The position numbers were made by a program, and so were the translations under genes. The notes under the pieces are model-generated. The model had not been told where the DNA came from and made no database searches. It worked only from the letters and a program-made list of their open reading frames with translations. A DNA stretch of 64,000 bases, from contig DASWYF010000028.1 in NCBI GenBank assembly GCA_036405135.1, positions 62,001 to 126,000 of the forward strand. Direction: 5' to 3'. The DNA is from Verrucomicrobiia bacterium (GTDB lineage Bacteria > Verrucomicrobiota > Verrucomicrobiia > Limisphaerales > JAEYXS01). This document shows, piece after piece, positions 1 to 37,750 of this stretch (positions are counted from its first letter, which is position 1; every line of letters begins with the position of its first letter).

Positions 1-359
1 TGCCGCCCAAAGCCGCCCGCGAGAATGATGCCTTGGCATTGGAAGCCTGTGTCAGTCTCATTCGCCAGCAACCATGCCACTTGCGATCCGAAAGATTCCC
101 CCAAGAGCCAGCCCCGCGTGATGCCGTTCTCCTTTAATGCTTTTCTGATGTGTTCGGCGTAGTCAGCCAAAGTCCACGTGACCGTTCGTGGATAAGTGAT
201 CTCCACGAAGCAAAACTGAGGGATGAGTTTATTCCGTAAGCCGGTGATGACACTCCAGTCACCATGCGTGCCGGGCAGATAGATGAGCGTGGGCAATGTC
301 AGCGAATCGTGAATGCGGATCCGCACAGACTCATCGGCGCTGACCTTCTCCTCAGGCAT
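1..359 (-). CDS. alpha/beta hydrolase, N-terminal part (runs off window)
   Basis: The first 119 residues read from an ATG whose codon lies at 357-359 and continue past the window edge. The segment has the pattern of an alpha/beta-hydrolase: a strand ending in YLPGTHGDW (about residues 28-35) and the nucleophile elbow GESFGS with Ser89. The ATG overlaps the stop region of the upstream MFS gene by 8 bases, which suggests translational coupling as the last visible gene of the lnt-aas unit. The acid and His of the triad would lie outside the window, so the substrate cannot be judged. A lysophospholipase or thioesterase role would fit the neighbours, but that is inference only. Confidence 0.8.
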   Translation of the reverse strand, partial: MPEEKVSADESVRIRIHDSLTLPTLIYLPGTHGDWSVITGLRNKLIPQFCFVEITYPRTVTWTLADYAEHIRKALKENGITRGWLLGESFGSQVAWLLANETDTGFQCQGIILAGGFGR

Positions 360-1683
360 TGCGCAGCTTCTCCCAATCACGCGGCTTGTCATCCACCTTT
401 TGCAGGATGATGAAGCCCGCGATCATCATCGCCAGCAGGAAGAGCATGCTGATGCCCTGGCCAGTCAGCGGGTCCATGTTCATCTTTTGAATGAAGAACC
501 AAGTGGATGCCGCCCAGATGCCCGGACCCGTGATCGCGGAGAAGCGCCCCACCATGCCGTAAAGGCCGTAGAATTCGCCTACGCGATCAGGTGGGGTCAG
601 GCGCAGCATGTAGGGGCGATCTGCGGACCAGACGCCGCCCAGTGCGAATCCAGCCACGCCAGCGAGCACATACATCGCGGCCATGGGCAGCTTGAAAACG
701 CCGATGCAGAAGCCGAGGATGAAATTGCCGATCCAGAGGGTCAGCACCATGTTCAGCGTCTTCTTCGGGCCGATCTTGTCCGTCAGCCAGCCCCAGAAAA
801 GCCCGCCAGCGATGGCGAAGGTGATGGCAAACGTCAGGATGAGCTGCGCCTTCTTCTCGCCTTGCTCTTTATCCAATCCCGAAGCGATGGCGACATTCAC
901 CGTGAAGAGCGACATCACTGTAAGCACCGTATTGATCGGGTCCGTGTAAAACACACGACCAATCAAAAAGCGTCCCAAGCCCGGAAATTTGCTGCCATCT
1001 TTCAAAGCCCGGATTGTTTCACCGGTGGATTTACGGACCATATCCAAATCAATCGGCCGGGGATTTGGATTGCCGCGTTCCTTCACAAAAGCGAGGCAAG
1101 GCAGCGAGAACAGCAGGAACAGCAACGCAGTCAGCACGAAGAGAAATGGCTTGTCACCCGTGCCGAAGTAGAGCGAAGCACCCACTGCGATATAAGATCC
1201 GAGATAACCGATGCCCACGCCGTAACCGCCGATGCGCCCGCGATTCGTCTCATTGCTCACCTCTGGTAACAGCGCATCGTAGAACTGCGTGCCTGCCTGA
1301 TACGCGATATTCGCGAGGATGTAGCAAATGGCCGACAGCATGAACCCAAAGCGCCCCAGTGTCGTCGTCAGCAGGATGCAGATGAGCGTGCTTGCGAAGA
1401 GAAAAGGCATCCGGCGCGGCGCACGATCGGTCATTGCTCCAAGGATCGGCGAAGCGATGAAGATCAGGCCCATCGAAATGGCGGTGATGATGGTGAAGAC
1501 TGTGTCCGCCTTTTCCGCACCGTAGAGGTCGCGCACGTAGAAGGGGAAGAAGAGTGATGTCACACCCATCGCGAAGATGGTGTTCGCGAGATCGTACATG
1601 ACCCACCCAGTCACGGCGCTCTTAGTTACAACATGCGGTGCCGGTACAGACGATGTGGTCGCCCCGGTGGTTTCGGAGTTCAT
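352..1683 (-). CDS. MFS transporter, UMF1/Atg22-like
   Basis: A 443-residue integral membrane protein with about twelve hydrophobic segments. The first helix carries MYDLANTIFAMGV, close to the YDWANSAF signature of the UMF1 (Atg22-like) branch of the major facilitator superfamily. A second UMF1-like block, NRGRIGGYGVGIGYLGSY, lies near residue 145-162, and a basic loop DRAPRR follows helix 3. It begins 4 bases after the aas stop codon and overlaps the next gene, so it is probably co-transcribed and coupled. In Escherichia coli the gene beside aas is the MFS lysophospholipid flippase LplT; this protein belongs to another MFS branch, so an equivalent role rests on context only. Substrate unknown. 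Confidence 0.85.
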   Translation of the reverse strand: MNSETTGATTSSVPAPHVVTKSAVTGWVMYDLANTIFAMGVTSLFFPFYVRDLYGAEKADTVFTIITAISMGLIFIASPILGAMTDRAPRRMPFLFASTLICILLTTTLGRFGFMLSAICYILANIAYQAGTQFYDALLPEVSNETNRGRIGGYGVGIGYLGSYIAVGASLYFGTGDKPFLFVLTALLFLLFSLPCLAFVKERGNPNPRPIDLDMVRKSTGETIRALKDGSKFPGLGRFLIGRVFYTDPINTVLTVMSLFTVNVAIASGLDKEQGEKKAQLILTFAITFAIAGGLFWGWLTDKIGPKKTLNMVLTLWIGNFILGFCIGVFKLPMAAMYVLAGVAGFALGGVWSADRPYMLRLTPPDRVGEFYGLYGMVGRFSAITGPGIWAASTWFFIQKMNMDPLTGQGISMLFLLAMMIAGFIILQKVDDKPRDWEKLRNA

Positions 1684-1687
1684 AGGA

Positions 1688-3829
1688 TTACTTCTTTTCC
1701 TCGCTGATAAGCTTCTGCAGCTCGCGATGGTTCACTTTACCCGTGCCCAGCTTGGGGATCTCGCGCACCGCTTTGATCTCACGAGGAGCACTCAGGTTGC
1801 TAAGCCCCTTTTCTTTGATCACCTTGCGCAAGTCTTCCAGCGTGAGCTTGGGCTCATTGCTGATGGCGATGAGCTTCTCGCCCTTTTCTTCATCGGGGAT
1901 GGAAACGACTGCCACTTGGCAGCGCAAGCCGAACTGTGGGAACGCACCCGCGAATGCATCTTCAACTGCCGTGAGACTCACCATCTCACCGCTGATCTTG
2001 GCGAAGCGTTTCATGCGGCCGCGCACGGAAAGGAAGCCATCGGCATCTACGGCGACGATGTCACCTGTATCATACCAGCCGCCGTTCTCCTTGAACTTCG
2101 CATTCGCATCTGCGTTCAAATAACCCTTCATGATGTTTGGACCACGCACATGCAGGCGCCCGCCATCTTCCACGCCTTCGACTGGTTCGAGTTTGTATTC
2201 GATGCCCGGCAGCAAACGCCCCACGGTGCCATTACGCGGTTGCAACGGCGTGTTCACGCTCACGCACGGACTGCACTCCGTCGCGCCGTAACCTTCCAAG
2301 ATGCGCACGCCGAATTTCTCGGACCAGGTCTTGGCAGTCGTCTCTTGGAGCTTCTCAGCCGCCGCAAAGAGATAGCGCATGCTGCGGAAATCATACGGAT
2401 GCGCCTTGCGCGCGTAACCGTTGAGGAACGTGTTCGTGCTGAGGAACACTGTGCAGTCGCGATCATAAAGCGCCGTAGGTACTACACGGTAATGCAGAGG
2501 CGAAGGATAGACGAATGAGTAAAGCCCGCGCACCAGCGGCAGCAACGTGCCAACGCTGAGGCCGAAACTGTGGAACATCGGCAGACAGTTGAACACGCGA
2601 TCATTATCCTGCAGATCGGTGATCGCGAGCATCTGTCGGATATTCGCGAGGATGTTTTTGTGAGTCAGCTCCACGCCCTTCGGCACGCCTTCTGAACCGC
2701 TGGTGAAAAGGATGACGGCGGTGTCATTGTAATCCTTCGTGCAGGGCAGGGCGGTACGCGGCCAGAGCAGGTGCTTAATTAGCGTGGAGAGCTTTTGTCC
2801 GCCAGTGACACCAGCACGCAAGTCCTCGAGGTAGATGAATTCAATGCCCGCCTTGATCATCGGTTCAATGTCCAGTCGTGCCTTCTGTAGAAAAGTCTTG
2901 GAGGTGACGATCTGTTTCATGCCTGCGAGTTGCGCGCAAGCGATCATGATGGGGATGCCCGTGCTGAAATTCAGCAACGCTGGCACGTGCCCCAGTGACC
3001 AGAGGGCTACACACGTTACCGGTGTGGCACTGATGTTCGGCAACAGCACACCAATATGAGTGGATTGCTCAGGGAGACGTTTCCGTAATTCCTGGCCGAT
3101 CACATCCGCGCCCACGAGGAACTTGCGGAAGGAGAGTGGTGTGCGGTTCACGTCTTCCAGTGCGATCTCGTTCGGTACATCCGCTGCGGTTTCTGCGATG
3201 GCATGCACAAGGTTTTTCTCGCCGAACGCCATTTCCGTATCGAACTGCAATGTCACTAGTTTATCGCGCAGCCAGTTTGTCACCACGACGCGTGCTTGCG
3301 ATGTGCTCAAGTGTTCCAGCTTCGGCACGGTATGGATGCCGCTGAAATGCGCGGTGACTTCCGGGAACCATTCCTTCCAGCCCGTGTGCGGCGAGAGCGG
3401 CAGGCGATGCGCCTTGCGCAGATAGCACGTGATAACTTTCGCGTTCGTCTTGTAGATGAGGAAGCCCGTGCCATCGAACAGCTTCATCAGATTGCCTGTG
3501 CGCGAGAGGCGGCCTTCCGGGAAGAGCACAAGGCGACCGCCCTTCTGTAAATACTCCGCCATCTGCTTCACTGCGTAAGGCGAGTTCGGATCGATAGGGA
3601 AGGTGCGCTTGTTCACCATCACTTTGCGATGCAGCCAGGATGTCTTAGCCGTGTTAGCCGAAGTGACGAAGCGCCAATCATCATCCAGACATACTGCGAG
3701 GAAGAGCCAATCCAGCCATGAGATATGGTTCGGCAGGAGCAGCACCGGCCCCTGCGTCTTCAGCACCTCGGTGTCATATGCCCGGAAACGGTAGAACAAC
3801 CGGACGAGGAACTGGAAGAATGCTTTCAT
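1688..3829 (-). CDS. aas: bifunctional acyltransferase / acyl-ACP synthetase (Aas-type)
   Basis: 713 residues, close to the 719 of E. coli Aas and with the same two-domain order. The N-terminal PlsC-type acyltransferase has the HX4D box NHISWLD (His35, Asp40) and FPEGRLSR (about 102-109). The C-terminal AMP-forming synthetase has the P-loop-like FTSGSEGVPKG (about 370-380), EGYGATECSP (about 510) and YDTGD (about 588). The family activates a fatty acid with ATP and transfers it to the free position of a lysophospholipid, mainly lyso-PE, at the inner membrane. It lies 32 bases downstream of lnt, whose reaction creates lysophospholipid, and 4 bases upstream of the MFS gene. The specific acyl donor (ACP or CoA) cannot be told from sequence. 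Confidence 0.9.
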   Translation of the reverse strand: MKAFFQFLVRLFYRFRAYDTEVLKTQGPVLLLPNHISWLDWLFLAVCLDDDWRFVTSANTAKTSWLHRKVMVNKRTFPIDPNSPYAVKQMAEYLQKGGRLVLFPEGRLSRTGNLMKLFDGTGFLIYKTNAKVITCYLRKAHRLPLSPHTGWKEWFPEVTAHFSGIHTVPKLEHLSTSQARVVVTNWLRDKLVTLQFDTEMAFGEKNLVHAIAETAADVPNEIALEDVNRTPLSFRKFLVGADVIGQELRKRLPEQSTHIGVLLPNISATPVTCVALWSLGHVPALLNFSTGIPIMIACAQLAGMKQIVTSKTFLQKARLDIEPMIKAGIEFIYLEDLRAGVTGGQKLSTLIKHLLWPRTALPCTKDYNDTAVILFTSGSEGVPKGVELTHKNILANIRQMLAITDLQDNDRVFNCLPMFHSFGLSVGTLLPLVRGLYSFVYPSPLHYRVVPTALYDRDCTVFLSTNTFLNGYARKAHPYDFRSMRYLFAAAEKLQETTAKTWSEKFGVRILEGYGATECSPCVSVNTPLQPRNGTVGRLLPGIEYKLEPVEGVEDGGRLHVRGPNIMKGYLNADANAKFKENGGWYDTGDIVAVDADGFLSVRGRMKRFAKISGEMVSLTAVEDAFAGAFPQFGLRCQVAVVSIPDEEKGEKLIAISNEPKLTLEDLRKVIKEKGLSNLSAPREIKAVREIPKLGTGKVNHRELQKLISEEKK

Positions 3830-3861
3830 GCTTATATGTTGTTACGACTAGAGAACAGATT

Positions 3862-5349
3862 TTAATGCGTGGGACGAGCAGCAAGTTCTTTGGCTTTGCG
3901 GCGACGCAATGTGAGGGCCAGCAAGCCGATCAGTGGCGTGGCCGCACTGGCAGCGGGAGCAAGGTGGCGATCGATGGGCAAGGAGCCTTGCGTCACCACC
4001 GTCATGCAGCCGCCGATAACTTCGCCATCGCCGGGCATCGAGGCGGAGGCGAGCACGCGACCTTTGCCATCCACCAGTTGCGAGATACCCGAGCTGGCCA
4101 CGCGAAAGATAGGCACGCCGTGTTCCATTGCGCGAACCGGAGCGACGCGGGCGTGAAGCTGATGCTGGTATTCGCCCCAATGCATCACATCCATGGTTGG
4201 CACAAGAATGCCCTGCGCGCCTTGGCGGACGAGTTCATCCACCACACGGGAGAAACTAAGATCGTAGCAGATGCAAATACCCAAGCGGCCCCAAGGCGAA
4301 TCCCACAGGGCTTGCTTCTCCGCCGGCAAACCATCGGCGAAGAATTGGATGGGCACTTGCTTTACTTGTTCAAAGACCGTTTCGCCTGTGGGGCCGATGA
4401 CGAAAGCGGTGTTGTAGAAATCACCATTGGCCGCCGGAGCTTTACCGCCCGCCACGAGATACTTCTGGTTCGTCTTGCACCACGCGCGGACTTGTTCCGG
4501 CACGGGACCGGAGAAGGTATATTCACTCAACATGATGAGCTGGGCCTCGGGTTGCTTCACCAACACATCTTTGAGGGCGCGCATCACTTCGCCGTCGGCA
4601 GGAAACTCCATCTGCACGCCAGCCACGGCGAAGGAGCGGACGGGCACGCGTTTGGAGAGTTTGGAGGGCAGGGACCAATCGCGGGTGGAGGCGGTGAACG
4701 CGAGCATCACCAGCGCGGTCACGACGAGCATGGCTTCACGGCGCAAGAGCGAGAGCAGGCAAGCCAACAGCATCAGCATGAAACCGAGGCCATAGACACC
4801 GAACATCTGGAGCAAGCCGCCGGGCAGATGCAGCCCCATAGTGAAACCGGCGTTCAACCACGAGAAGCGCAGGTAGTAGAGCTCGCTGCGGAAGTATTCG
4901 ATGCCCATCCAGACCAGCGGCAGGGTGATGACAAAGGCCCACGCGGGGAACTGGCGTCGCATATGGCAACCCAGCCAGAGGAACAGGCCGAACCAGAAGG
5001 ACAGCACGACCCACAGAGGCACAGCGGCCCAACTGAAGATGTTAAAGAAGAAACTCAATTGCGGTGCGACCAGCGAGAAGCCGAATAAGCAGCCGATGAT
5101 GAAACTGGCGCGGCCGGGCTCAAGTCGTGTGAGTTGAACCAATGAGAGGTAGGTGAGTAACAGCCAGCCTCCCGCCGCTGGTGTTACATACGCCGCGTGA
5201 AAACCAGCCATGCCTGCAAGCAGCCACAGAAACGCTTCGGACTTCGTCAATGCGGCCGAGCCGAGGAAATGCAAGCCCTGCAATCGCGTGTGAAACCATT
5301 GCGGAATCAATAGAGCGATGTGCGGGATGTTCCAGGTGCGGGTTTGCAT
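3862..5349 (-). CDS. lnt: apolipoprotein N-acyltransferase
   Basis: 495 residues: six to eight N-terminal membrane helices (about 1-210) followed by a nitrilase-fold domain. The nitrilase triad is visible: Glu in LSEYTFSG (about 275), Lys in EQVKQVPIQ (about 328) and Cys in GICICYDLSF (about 358). The region WMGIEYFRS is typical of Lnt. The enzyme transfers the sn-1 acyl group of a phospholipid to the N-terminal Cys of lipoproteins on the periplasmic face of the inner membrane, leaving a lysophospholipid. A C-terminal hydrophobic stretch followed by RRRKAKELAARP forms the tail. It sits 30 bases after the MarR gene and 32 bases before aas, so the four genes look like one operon. Confidence 0.9.
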   Translation of the reverse strand: MQTRTWNIPHIALLIPQWFHTRLQGLHFLGSAALTKSEAFLWLLAGMAGFHAAYVTPAAGGWLLLTYLSLVQLTRLEPGRASFIIGCLFGFSLVAPQLSFFFNIFSWAAVPLWVVLSFWFGLFLWLGCHMRRQFPAWAFVITLPLVWMGIEYFRSELYYLRFSWLNAGFTMGLHLPGGLLQMFGVYGLGFMLMLLACLLSLLRREAMLVVTALVMLAFTASTRDWSLPSKLSKRVPVRSFAVAGVQMEFPADGEVMRALKDVLVKQPEAQLIMLSEYTFSGPVPEQVRAWCKTNQKYLVAGGKAPAANGDFYNTAFVIGPTGETVFEQVKQVPIQFFADGLPAEKQALWDSPWGRLGICICYDLSFSRVVDELVRQGAQGILVPTMDVMHWGEYQHQLHARVAPVRAMEHGVPIFRVASSGISQLVDGKGRVLASASMPGDGEVIGGCMTVVTQGSLPIDRHLAPAASAATPLIGLLALTLRRRKAKELAARPTH

Positions 5350-5379
5350 GGCGACCTCCTTGTTGTTTACGGCAGTTGT

Positions 5380-5850
5380 TTATTTTTGGCTGTACTTCTG
5401 GGCAATCACTTCCGCCTGCGTCTTGATGGCGTCGAGTTCGTTCACCAGCTCCTTCGCGCGCTTGGCGGACATCGGGCTCCAGACTTCCTCTGAAGCCTGA
5501 TAATAAACGGGCAAAATCTCCTGAAGCAACTTGCGACCAGCATCGGTCAGCACCACGCGATACGCGCGGCGATCTTCTGGCACGCTCTGACGTTTCACGA
5601 GCGCGCGTTCCTCCAAGCGATCCACTAAGCCGGTGACATTCGAGCGATGGGTGAGCAGGGCTTCGCTCAAGTCCGTCTGGGAAAGGCCATCCTCATGGTC
5701 GCGCAGGATGTTCAGCACGTTGAACTGGCTGGGGCTGAGATCCCAACGGGAGAAGAAGAGGCGGCTGGAATTCCAAAGGGTCTCCGCCGTGCGCAAGAGT
5801 TGAAGCATGGCCTCGTAGTGCGGTCCGGGTTGCGGCGTTTTCGTGCTCAC
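5380..5850 (-). CDS. MarR family transcriptional regulator
   Basis: 156 residues from a GTG start at 5850. The open frame continues 13 codons further to a TTG, but that extension runs through the palindrome at 5871-5890, so the GTG is preferred. The winged-helix core is clear: LSPSQFNVLNIL, then the recognition helix region LSQTDLSEALLTHRSNVTGL and the wing DRRAYRVVLTDAG. MarR proteins are dimers that repress by binding short palindromes and are released by small ligands. It is the first gene of the lnt-aas unit, so it probably controls itself and that unit. The ligand is unknown; fatty acids or membrane-active compounds would fit the operon. Confidence 0.88.
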   Translation of the reverse strand: MSTKTPQPGPHYEAMLQLLRTAETLWNSSRLFFSRWDLSPSQFNVLNILRDHEDGLSQTDLSEALLTHRSNVTGLVDRLEERALVKRQSVPEDRRAYRVVLTDAGRKLLQEILPVYYQASEEVWSPMSAKRAKELVNELDAIKTQAEVIAQKYSQK

Positions 5851-5870
5851 GGAGATATGTCTATAGGTAG

Positions 5871-5890
5871 ATTGTTGATATGTCAACAAT
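5871..5890 (-). promoter_or_regulatory. probable MarR operator overlapping a -35 box
   Basis: A perfect inverted repeat, attgttga-tatg-tcaacaat, begins 20 bases upstream of the preferred marR start. On the minus strand it contains TTGACA, and TATAGA follows 15 bases later, a tolerable though short sigma-70-type spacing. The size and the position over the -35 box are typical of an autoregulatory MarR site. Binding has not been shown. Confidence 0.6.
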
Positions 5891-5940: not shown

Positions 5941-6097
5941 GTGCTGCCGGATTCCAGCCGGCAGTAAGCAGGTGTACGACGAAGCCTGTGTCAGTGCTCA
6001 CAAACCTTATCCTGTCGGAACAAAGGTTGCTGGTTGATTATTTGTGAGCGTTCTTACCAATCCACACCCTTTACTGCCGGCTGGAATCCGGCAGCAC
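5941..6097. repeat. REP-like inverted pair, family A
   Basis: A 27-base unit with the core CTGCCGG-ATTCC-AGCCGGCAG at 5941-5967 is repeated in exact inverted orientation at 6071-6097. Between the copies lie two further inverted pairs: gctcacaaa at 5996-6004 with tttgtgagc at 6041-6049, and aacctt at 6003-6008 with aaggtt at 6023-6028. The stretch could therefore fold into nested stems. An identical third unit lies alone at 37454-37480. No gene is seen between 5891 and 6336. Confidence 0.8.
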
Positions 6098-6336: not shown

Positions 6337-6840
6337 TCAATAATCGTAAAGCCCGCTATCTTGTGTATAGGCGCCACCGCCTTTGCCGCCGCCGGGGCCG
6401 CCCATCCAATCGCCGAGCACATCGCCCATGTCGGCCTCGATCTTTTCTGGGTCTTCGCCTTGTTCGAGGCGTTTGATGGCGACATCAAGTTCCTTGGGCA
6501 CGGAGCCGGCGGGCATGATGTCTTTCATCTTTTTCATCATGTGCGCGATGTGCTTGGGGTTGTTCTCATCCATCGTGCCCATGTCGCGCTCCATCTCGTT
6601 CATCACCTTTTGCACGCGGGGATCGTCGAAGTTCGGCATAGCCATGTCATCGCCGCCTTGGCCCAAGCCGCCAGCAGATGGTTCCGTTGCGCCTTTGATC
6701 ATCGCGAAACGGCTGAGCTCCTTGACCATCTTTTTGTTGCCGCACTTGGGGCAAGCAGGCAGGCGGTCGGGATTGATGCGCTTGGACAGGAAGTTGAAAA
6801 TCTTCCGGCACTTGGGACACGCATATTCGTAAATGGGCAT
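6337..6840 (-). CDS. FmdB-type zinc-ribbon protein
   Basis: 167 residues from the ATG at 6840, which begins the family hallmark MPIYEYACPKC. An upstream in-frame start would add 21 unrelated residues and is rejected. Cys8/Cys11 and Cys30/Cys33 form the predicted zinc ribbon of the FmdB/CxxC-CxxC-SSSS family, a putative regulatory domain of unclear function. After residue 40 the protein is acidic and rich in Met and Gly, with a low-complexity segment GGPGGGKGGGAY near the C-terminus; this tail is longer than in the short family members. It is flanked by repeat-rich DNA with no obvious operon partner. Confidence 0.8.
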   Translation of the reverse strand: MPIYEYACPKCRKIFNFLSKRINPDRLPACPKCGNKKMVKELSRFAMIKGATEPSAGGLGQGGDDMAMPNFDDPRVQKVMNEMERDMGTMDENNPKHIAHMMKKMKDIMPAGSVPKELDVAIKRLEQGEDPEKIEADMGDVLGDWMGGPGGGKGGGAYTQDSGLYDY

Positions 6841-7064
6841 GAGGAAAGCATAGCCACAAAAAGGCGCAGAAGGCACAAAAAACTGAGGCATGGGTAAGCG
6901 CAAAGTGGTGGAACTCGCTCCTTCCGTATTCGGCCAAATTTCCGGTGGTGAATCGCCATTGAGTGGCTTACTATCAATTCAAGAGTGAATTCTATCTCCT
7001 TAACCTCAGACACACTGGACCAAACCACAGTTTTGGCTAATGTCTAATTGGCCGTTCACACGCT

Positions 7065-37252: not shown

Positions 37253-37750
37253 GGGTGAGGGTGCTATAGCGCGAGGAGGAAGCGGAAGAAAGGAGAAACT
37301 GGTTGCATCAGGGGCCTATGGGGGAAAGGGGAAACGTCCAACTTCCATCCAACGTTCAGAGAGGGAAGGGAGAAGCAACGAATATCGAGACGGAGCCGGC
37401 GTAAAGATAGGCCGCTATGTCAGGATGCTCCGAATGCCATATTGAACGATTCTTTACTGCCGGCTGGAATCCGGCAGCACGGGCTGTGTGTTTCGTCGCA
37501 CGCTGATGTCTGGTGAAGGGCTTGCGTGAATGGAGAGTTTGCTTCAGTCTTAGGGGAACAATCCTTGAAACCTGCGGGCGGTGCGATGACGTCTATTACG
37601 AGAATGCTTTTTATGAATCTCAAAATCCGCAATTTTAGCACGACGGATTATTGGATGATCCCTTCCCCCTCACCCCGGCCCTCTCCGCCGAAGCTCGGCC
37701 TGCCATCGGGGAGAGGAGGGGATATTTGCCGCGTTTTCATACTGAGGACG
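37253..37750. other. repeat-rich intergenic stretch
   Basis: No gene is supported here. It holds a family-G-like fragment (about 37333-37360), the single family A unit (37454-37480) and a family E hairpin (37665-37721). An open frame reaches in from upstream of the sulfatase, but its residues are encoded by these repeats and are not conserved-looking. Confidence 0.6.
37454..37480. repeat. single family A REP-like unit
   Basis: The unit is identical over 27 bases to the one at 6071-6097. No inverted partner lies within a few hundred bases. Confidence 0.8.

Follow-up and report, generated by a model that had tools for sequence, protein, structure and literature searches.

A MarR-led aas operon of Limisphaerales with a UMF1/ATG22-type MFS gene and a divergent Lnt-like gene: a candidate variant of the LplT-Aas recycling system

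The window, a stretch of 64,000 nucleotides from contig DASWYF010000028.1 of a Verrucomicrobiia bacterium of the order Limisphaerales, carries five genes, marR, lnt2, aas, an MFS transporter gene and an alpha/beta hydrolase gene, all on the minus strand and in this order from position 5890 down past base 1. The intergenic gaps are 30 (5350–5379), 32 (3830–3861) and 4 (1684–1687) bases, and the MFS and hydrolase genes overlap by 8 bases (352–359). The coordinates thus bear out the five-gene unit, with these gaps and this overlap, that was described in the initial annotation of the window. The features are as follows.

5871–5890, unstranded: operator, the perfect palindrome ATTGTTGA-CATA-TCAACAAT, overlapping the -35 box of the marR promoter; proposed MarR target sequence, ATTGTTGACATATCAACAAT
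5886–5881, minus strand: -35 box TTGACA of the marR promoter
5857–5863, minus strand: -10-like element TAGACAT, 17 bases below TTGACA
5380–5850, minus strand: marR, GTG start, 156 aa (PF12802, 61.5 bits, cut-off 27); start set by related promoters
3862–5349, minus strand: lnt2, divergent membrane Lnt-like acyltransferase of the nitrilase superfamily, 495 aa (PF20154, LNT_N, and PF00795, CN_hydrolase)
1688–3829, minus strand: aas, bifunctional lysophospholipid acyltransferase/acyl-ACP synthetase, 713 aa (PlsC-type acyltransferase and AMP-binding domains)
352–1683, minus strand: UMF1/ATG22-type MFS transporter, 443 aa (PF11700, 91.9 bits, cut-off 24.1; MFS_1/ATG22)
1–359, minus strand: alpha/beta hydrolase, first 119 codons (PF00561, Abhydrolase_1, 32.8 bits, cut-off 25.8)

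The full hydrolase gene (L009:7559–8359) ends about 440 bases beyond base 1 of the window, and the Ser (GESFG), Asp and His positions are all present in its product.

The start of marR had been placed at the TTG at 5889, which falls within the promoter. In related operator-bearing marR loci, the distance between the operator and the start codon is near-constant, and because the start codons of these loci keep the operator spacing, marR was assigned to the frame from GTG 5850 to 5380. The start codon thereby lies about 7 bases after the -10-like TAGACAT, and a TAnACAT-like element and a start codon are found at similar spacing in most of the related marR loci. Judging from the predicted transcription start, the marR mRNA is probably leaderless.

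The palindrome ATTGTTGA-CATA-TCAACAAT has a single match within the window. Among the marR promoters of the order, 33 of 36 carry the operator with no more than four mismatches, in the same position and overlapping the -35 box, and in 1.31 Mb of sequence from the order four operator sites were found away from marR promoters. The window MarR possesses the winged-helix domain, and a palindromic site is present at its own promoter. These results support autoregulation of MarR through an operator over its own -35 box, as predicted from the promoter sequences, and with it the earlier proposal that the unit is under MarR control. The operator also offers a clean means of marking out the entire regulon. 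The FabT model gave the window MarR 19.7 bits (cut-off 200), and a lipid or fatty-acid ligand for MarR, which had been part of the same proposal, is unsupported. In two relatives, an extra MarR operator was seen directly before aas (L129:8412) and shortly before lplT (L141:6235), respectively; these sites may represent internal MarR-controlled promoters.

Over its whole length the window Aas can be aligned with E. coli Aas, and it keeps the catalytic His36. It matches just residues 427–1133, the Aas part, of the fused protein PRK06814. Aas-type matches were found in 99 of the 116 genomes of the order, and the MarR, Lnt2, Aas and hydrolase genes are linked across many Limisphaerales genomes, so that the five-gene order is not a product of chance. 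The commonest operon of the order is MarR-LplT-Aas-hydrolase without Lnt2 (L129, L131, L132, L134, L136 and L138), and since such operons are common, the repair core does not need Lnt2. The order LplT-Lnt2-Aas was seen in seven genomes, most of which have MarR and the hydrolase as well; the MFS proteins of these genomes score about 197–259 bits on the LplT model NF008397 (cut-off 297). Besides MarR and Aas, the most constant operon partner is the hydrolase and not the MFS protein. Of the 40 Lnt2 loci of the order, about 26 have Aas linked to Lnt2; in the others, Lnt2 stands by itself or follows the same marR with its operator (L061, L064 and L075). Outside the order, Lnt2 shows no linkage to Aas.

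The second gene had been annotated as the lipoprotein N-acyltransferase Lnt. On the Lnt equivalog model TIGR00546, however, its product scores 104.7 bits (101.8 bits as the weaker match in the search of the genome), below the cut-off of 132.9, whereas a true Lnt lies on another contig of the same genome (C2:45064–46314, 288 bits) and a standard Lnt above the cut-off is present in 108 of the 116 genomes of the order. The Lnt2 family comprises members about 40–52% identical in about 40 of the 116 genomes; beyond the order, a few other Verrucomicrobiota have remoter members (found in 15 of 388 genomes, this genome included). The protein is therefore a divergent paralogue, here called Lnt2.

Lnt2 shares with Lnt (TIGR00546; PDB 5n6h and 8b0p) the membrane nitrilase fold and the Glu-Lys-Cys triad, E276, K330 and C361 (Glu267-Lys335-Cys387 in E. 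coli), which is invariant in all 29 of the family members compared. It differs in its overall identity of about 20% and in loop 5, where KxxPIQFFxDG replaces the E343 loop. In E. coli Lnt, the residues that are essential beyond the triad include E343, G145, E389 and F416 (PMC5500890). In Lnt2, Arg or Lys replaces G145, Asp replaces E389, and F416 has no counterpart; E343 is not kept, and an invariant D339 adjoins its position and might substitute for it. Because the triad is kept and the essential residues are changed, the acceptor of Lnt2 is probably not an ordinary lipoprotein. The formation of an acyl-enzyme from phospholipid, which leaves a lysophospholipid, has probably been retained in Lnt2.

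Lnt2 was accordingly rejected as the lipoprotein Lnt of this genome, given the true Lnt elsewhere (288 bits), the score below the cut-off and the lost residues. It could still be a second true lipoprotein N-acyltransferase, in which case the operon would couple ordinary lipoprotein maturation to repair. The Lnt fold, the LNT_N domain and the conserved triad agree with such a role; nevertheless, the presence of a standard Lnt here and in nearly all of the order, the score under the Lnt cut-off and the change or loss of G145, E343, E389 and F416 make it quite unlikely. Since Lnt2 is not the lipoprotein Lnt, its part as the step that consumes phospholipid can only be conjectured. The closed cycle with lipoprotein maturation that was originally proposed fails as stated, as Lnt2 is divergent and the repair operons of many relatives are without it.

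Most members of the nitrilase superfamily hydrolyse amides. Lnt2 could thus be a lipid-degrading hydrolase or amidase, such as a lysophospholipase or an N-acyl amidase, instead of an acyltransferase; its membership in this superfamily, its weaker matches, which are amidases and formamidases, and the loss of the Lnt-specific positions all fit this activity. However, in a Foldseek search with the AlphaFold2 model of Lnt2 (pLDDT 88.7), the top 24 matches were all Lnt (TM 0.67–0.72), ahead of any soluble nitrilase, and they covered the full length, membrane domain included. In addition, AatD is a divergent Lnt homologue that acts as a transferase for another acceptor, being a glycine N-acyltransferase that acylates glycine (PMC7943197). 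We therefore consider a hydrolase unlikely and retain the acyltransferase assignment. By its description, AatD is a precedent for an Lnt homologue that serves a different acceptor alongside an ordinary Lnt, but unlike Lnt2 it is part of a protein secretion system (PMC7943197). Lnt2 would represent a second family of membrane acyltransferases, found across the order, whose acceptor is to be explored. In one genome (G064, L093:9936–11075), the place of the MFS gene, between marR and lnt2, is taken by a PLP aminotransferase gene (CobD/HisC-like, 178.6 bits) instead of a transporter gene, and this may hint at the chemistry of the Lnt2 acceptor.

For the MFS gene, the initial annotation had proposed a protein of another branch as a stand-in for LplT. 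The LplT profile (NF008397) search of this genome gave a best match of 13.1 bits against a cut-off of 297, with the E. coli control above the cut-off; no true LplT was thus found elsewhere in the genome. The window MFS is a member of the UMF1/ATG22 family (PF11700), with relatives 57–65% identical in Limisphaerales, Gemmatimonadota and Acidobacteriota. In all three genomes of its own genus (including G001 and G002), UMF1 is co-oriented with Aas and follows it after 4–5 bases. In G006, of a distant lineage, the operon reads MarR-UMF1-Aas-hydrolase: UMF1 precedes Aas by 6 bases and fills the very slot of LplT, and profile searches of this genome found neither an LplT match nor Lnt2.

Other MFS types occupy comparable positions. 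In G013 and G098, an ACS-type MFS gene lies 4–15 bases before Aas, without Lnt2, and in G049 and G086 an ACS-type MFS gene of the same kind is placed before Lnt2-Aas. In G089, a second ATG22-family MFS (about 30% identical, 209.7 bits on PF11700) lies 13 bases after Aas, again without Lnt2. None of these five genomes has an entry in the LplT profile search. All of these non-LplT MFS genes share the strand of Aas and directly adjoin a gene of the operon; the other Aas flanks of the order contain just three clear unrelated MFS genes. Since G006, G013, G098 and G089 pair an MFS protein with Aas and do not have Lnt2, the partner of the MFS protein is Aas, and Lnt2 was rejected for this part. An MFS gene beside Aas therefore recurs among the relatives, whereas the exact lnt-aas-UMF1 order of the window is confined to the genus.

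In the Aas tree, the own genus lies far from G006, and the two ACS families (f12 and f48) lie far apart. Because the UMF1 and ACS lineages are separated in this way, about five independent replacements of LplT by another MFS would be needed. Within the order, the UMF1 proteins fall into a single clade (99/97) with unresolved branching, so it is also possible that UMF1 entered the order once and was then rearranged. At a background estimated as 4 MFS genes per Mb, about 0.24 MFS neighbours would be expected in the LplT-less Aas loci, compared with the approximately five events seen (Poisson, about 5e-6, at this rough rate). UMF1 tends not to occur together with LplT-family genes, one of which is kept in one of the eight UMF1 genomes and in 61 of the 108 others (Fisher p = 0.019, without correction for kinship); the exception, G002, has a lone LplT-like domain of the kind found in the fused proteins.

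These counts bear on whether the MFS gene is a chance neighbour, brought into the operon by transfer and functionally unlinked. UMF1 is indeed widespread and elsewhere unlinked to Aas: it is kept apart from Aas in four of the eight UMF1 genomes and was never found near Aas outside the order, where its neighbours are housekeeping (rpoBC/str-like) genes only, without a functional clue. Conversely, UMF1 is kept at a spacing of 4–5 bases throughout the genus and appears again in the LplT slot of G006, and other MFS types take the same place in LplT-less lineages, all of which makes chance a very improbable explanation. In Gemmatimonadota (L160–L187), the UMF1 relatives lie in a conserved neighbourhood resembling rpoB/rpoC and str-operon genes, which is an unusual constant location for such a carrier. 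In a further genome (G041, L120:5134–8761), UMF1 lies near a PlsY-like frame and a GNAT/aminotransferase-like frame, a possible further link of UMF1 to phospholipid acylation.

The cargo of the MFS protein is a separate matter. The AF2 model of UMF1 (pLDDT 90) has the MFS fold, and the fold search returned MelB, LacY, Spns2, MFSD2A and sugar permeases alike, with no preference for lipid carriers. Comparison of the UMF1 and LplT profiles gave a weak match (11% identity) and no close relation, and a sequence search of solved structures with UMF1 gave no match. In the order, about 33 Aas loci stand without an MFS neighbour, and some of the genomes concerned have no LplT, UMF1 or ACS gene anywhere, which indicates that a linked flippase is not obligatory. 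The MFS protein might thus carry another cargo, exporting the acylated product of Lnt2 or moving fatty acids for Aas, with lysolipids taking another route; the generic fold, the absence of a specific resemblance to LplT and the many Aas loci without an adjacent MFS are all compatible with this. However, non-LplT MFS genes stand beside Aas in four genomes without Lnt2 (G006, G013, G098 and G089), and the UMF1 of G006 occupies the slot held by LplT in its sister genomes, which renders another cargo a doubtful alternative, albeit one to be kept in view. Of the proposed stand-in for LplT, then, the absence of LplT, the presence of UMF1 in the operon and its occupation of the LplT slot in G006 stand, and the role itself is drawn from genomic context. 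Since the fold is generic, the relation to LplT distant and the Aas linkage patchy, lysophospholipid transport by UMF1 is likewise argued from the genomic context. In another LplT-less genome (G112, L258:2786–4033), a 415-aa hydrophobic protein with no Pfam or NCBIfam match is encoded directly upstream of the Aas region.

Taken together, we favor, with a probability of roughly 0.6, the reading that the unit is a MarR-controlled lysophospholipid-repair operon of LplT-Aas type, with a UMF1/ATG22 MFS protein in place of LplT and with Lnt2 as an addition. This reading is based on the gene content and order, the order-wide conservation, the conserved operator and the absence of LplT, as well as on the repeated filling of the MFS slot by unrelated branches and the intact catalytic residues of Aas and triad of Lnt2; the transported substrate and its direction, the reaction of Lnt2, the role of the hydrolase and the ligand of MarR are conjectural. 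MarR, bound to the palindrome over its own -35 box, would hold expression of the operon low. The UMF1/ATG22 protein would act as the lysophospholipid flippase in place of LplT, and Aas would make acyl-ACP from fatty acid and then re-acylate the lysophospholipid. The alpha/beta hydrolase would probably release fatty acid or clear excess lysolipid.

In the LplT-Aas system of E. coli and Klebsiella, LplT and Aas work as a complex (PMC11416262), and Aas H36A and LplT D30A each inactivate the E. coli system (PMC13170283). The window unit resembles this system (PMC11416262, PMC13170283) in its full-length Aas with the catalytic histidine and in an operonic MFS gene co-oriented beside aas, and the LplT of the sister genomes keeps Asp30 (26 of 27 sequences, including E. 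coli). It differs in the lack of LplT, the UMF1/ATG22 MFS, the added MarR, alpha/beta hydrolase and Lnt2, and the operator-controlled promoter. The fused LplT-PlsC-Aas proteins (PRK06814/PRK08633) represent the same functional pair, and fused frames of about 1150–1250 aa also occur in the order; the window Aas, in contrast, is not fused and falls into a different clade, the fused forms being 31–41% identical. For the UMF1/ATG22 family, no lipid role was found in the literature searched and linkage to Aas is seen in Limisphaerales only; searches for UMF1/ATG22 with lysophospholipids, for LplT/Aas in Verrucomicrobiota and for a MarR-LplT link returned nothing relevant. The unit is best described as a novel form of LplT-Aas recycling in which the flippase has been exchanged, the MarR switch is conserved and an Lnt-like acyltransferase has joined the operon.

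The wider proposal, that LplT was replaced repeatedly in its own operon in Limisphaerales (by UMF1/ATG22 at least twice and by ACS-type MFS twice), that UMF1 is a lysophospholipid carrier and that Lnt2 generates lysophospholipids, is put forward tentatively, at somewhat less than even odds. LplT is the sole bacterial lysophospholipid-recycling transporter named in the literature found, and among the genomes searched, many encode Aas but not LplT. Should unrelated MFS proteins indeed fill the LplT slot repeatedly, operon position could be used to find the flippases still missing from LplT-less bacteria, and the bacterial UMF1/ATG22 carriers would gain a first testable function.

Just left of the window, on the plus strand and convergent with the operon (L009:18–7543), a 1917-aa repetitive frame with no Pfam match is followed by a gene for a ShlB/FhaC-type outer-membrane transporter (86 bits), and the two look like a two-partner secretion pair. 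On the other side, an FmdB-type zinc-ribbon protein (6337–6903, minus strand) adjoins marR throughout the genus. The palindromic, REP-like element CTGCCGGCTGGAATCCGGCAG occurs in three exact copies in the window (5944–5964, 6074–6094 and 37457–37477), whereas none would be expected by chance; two of the copies, oppositely oriented, lie between marR and the gene upstream of it.
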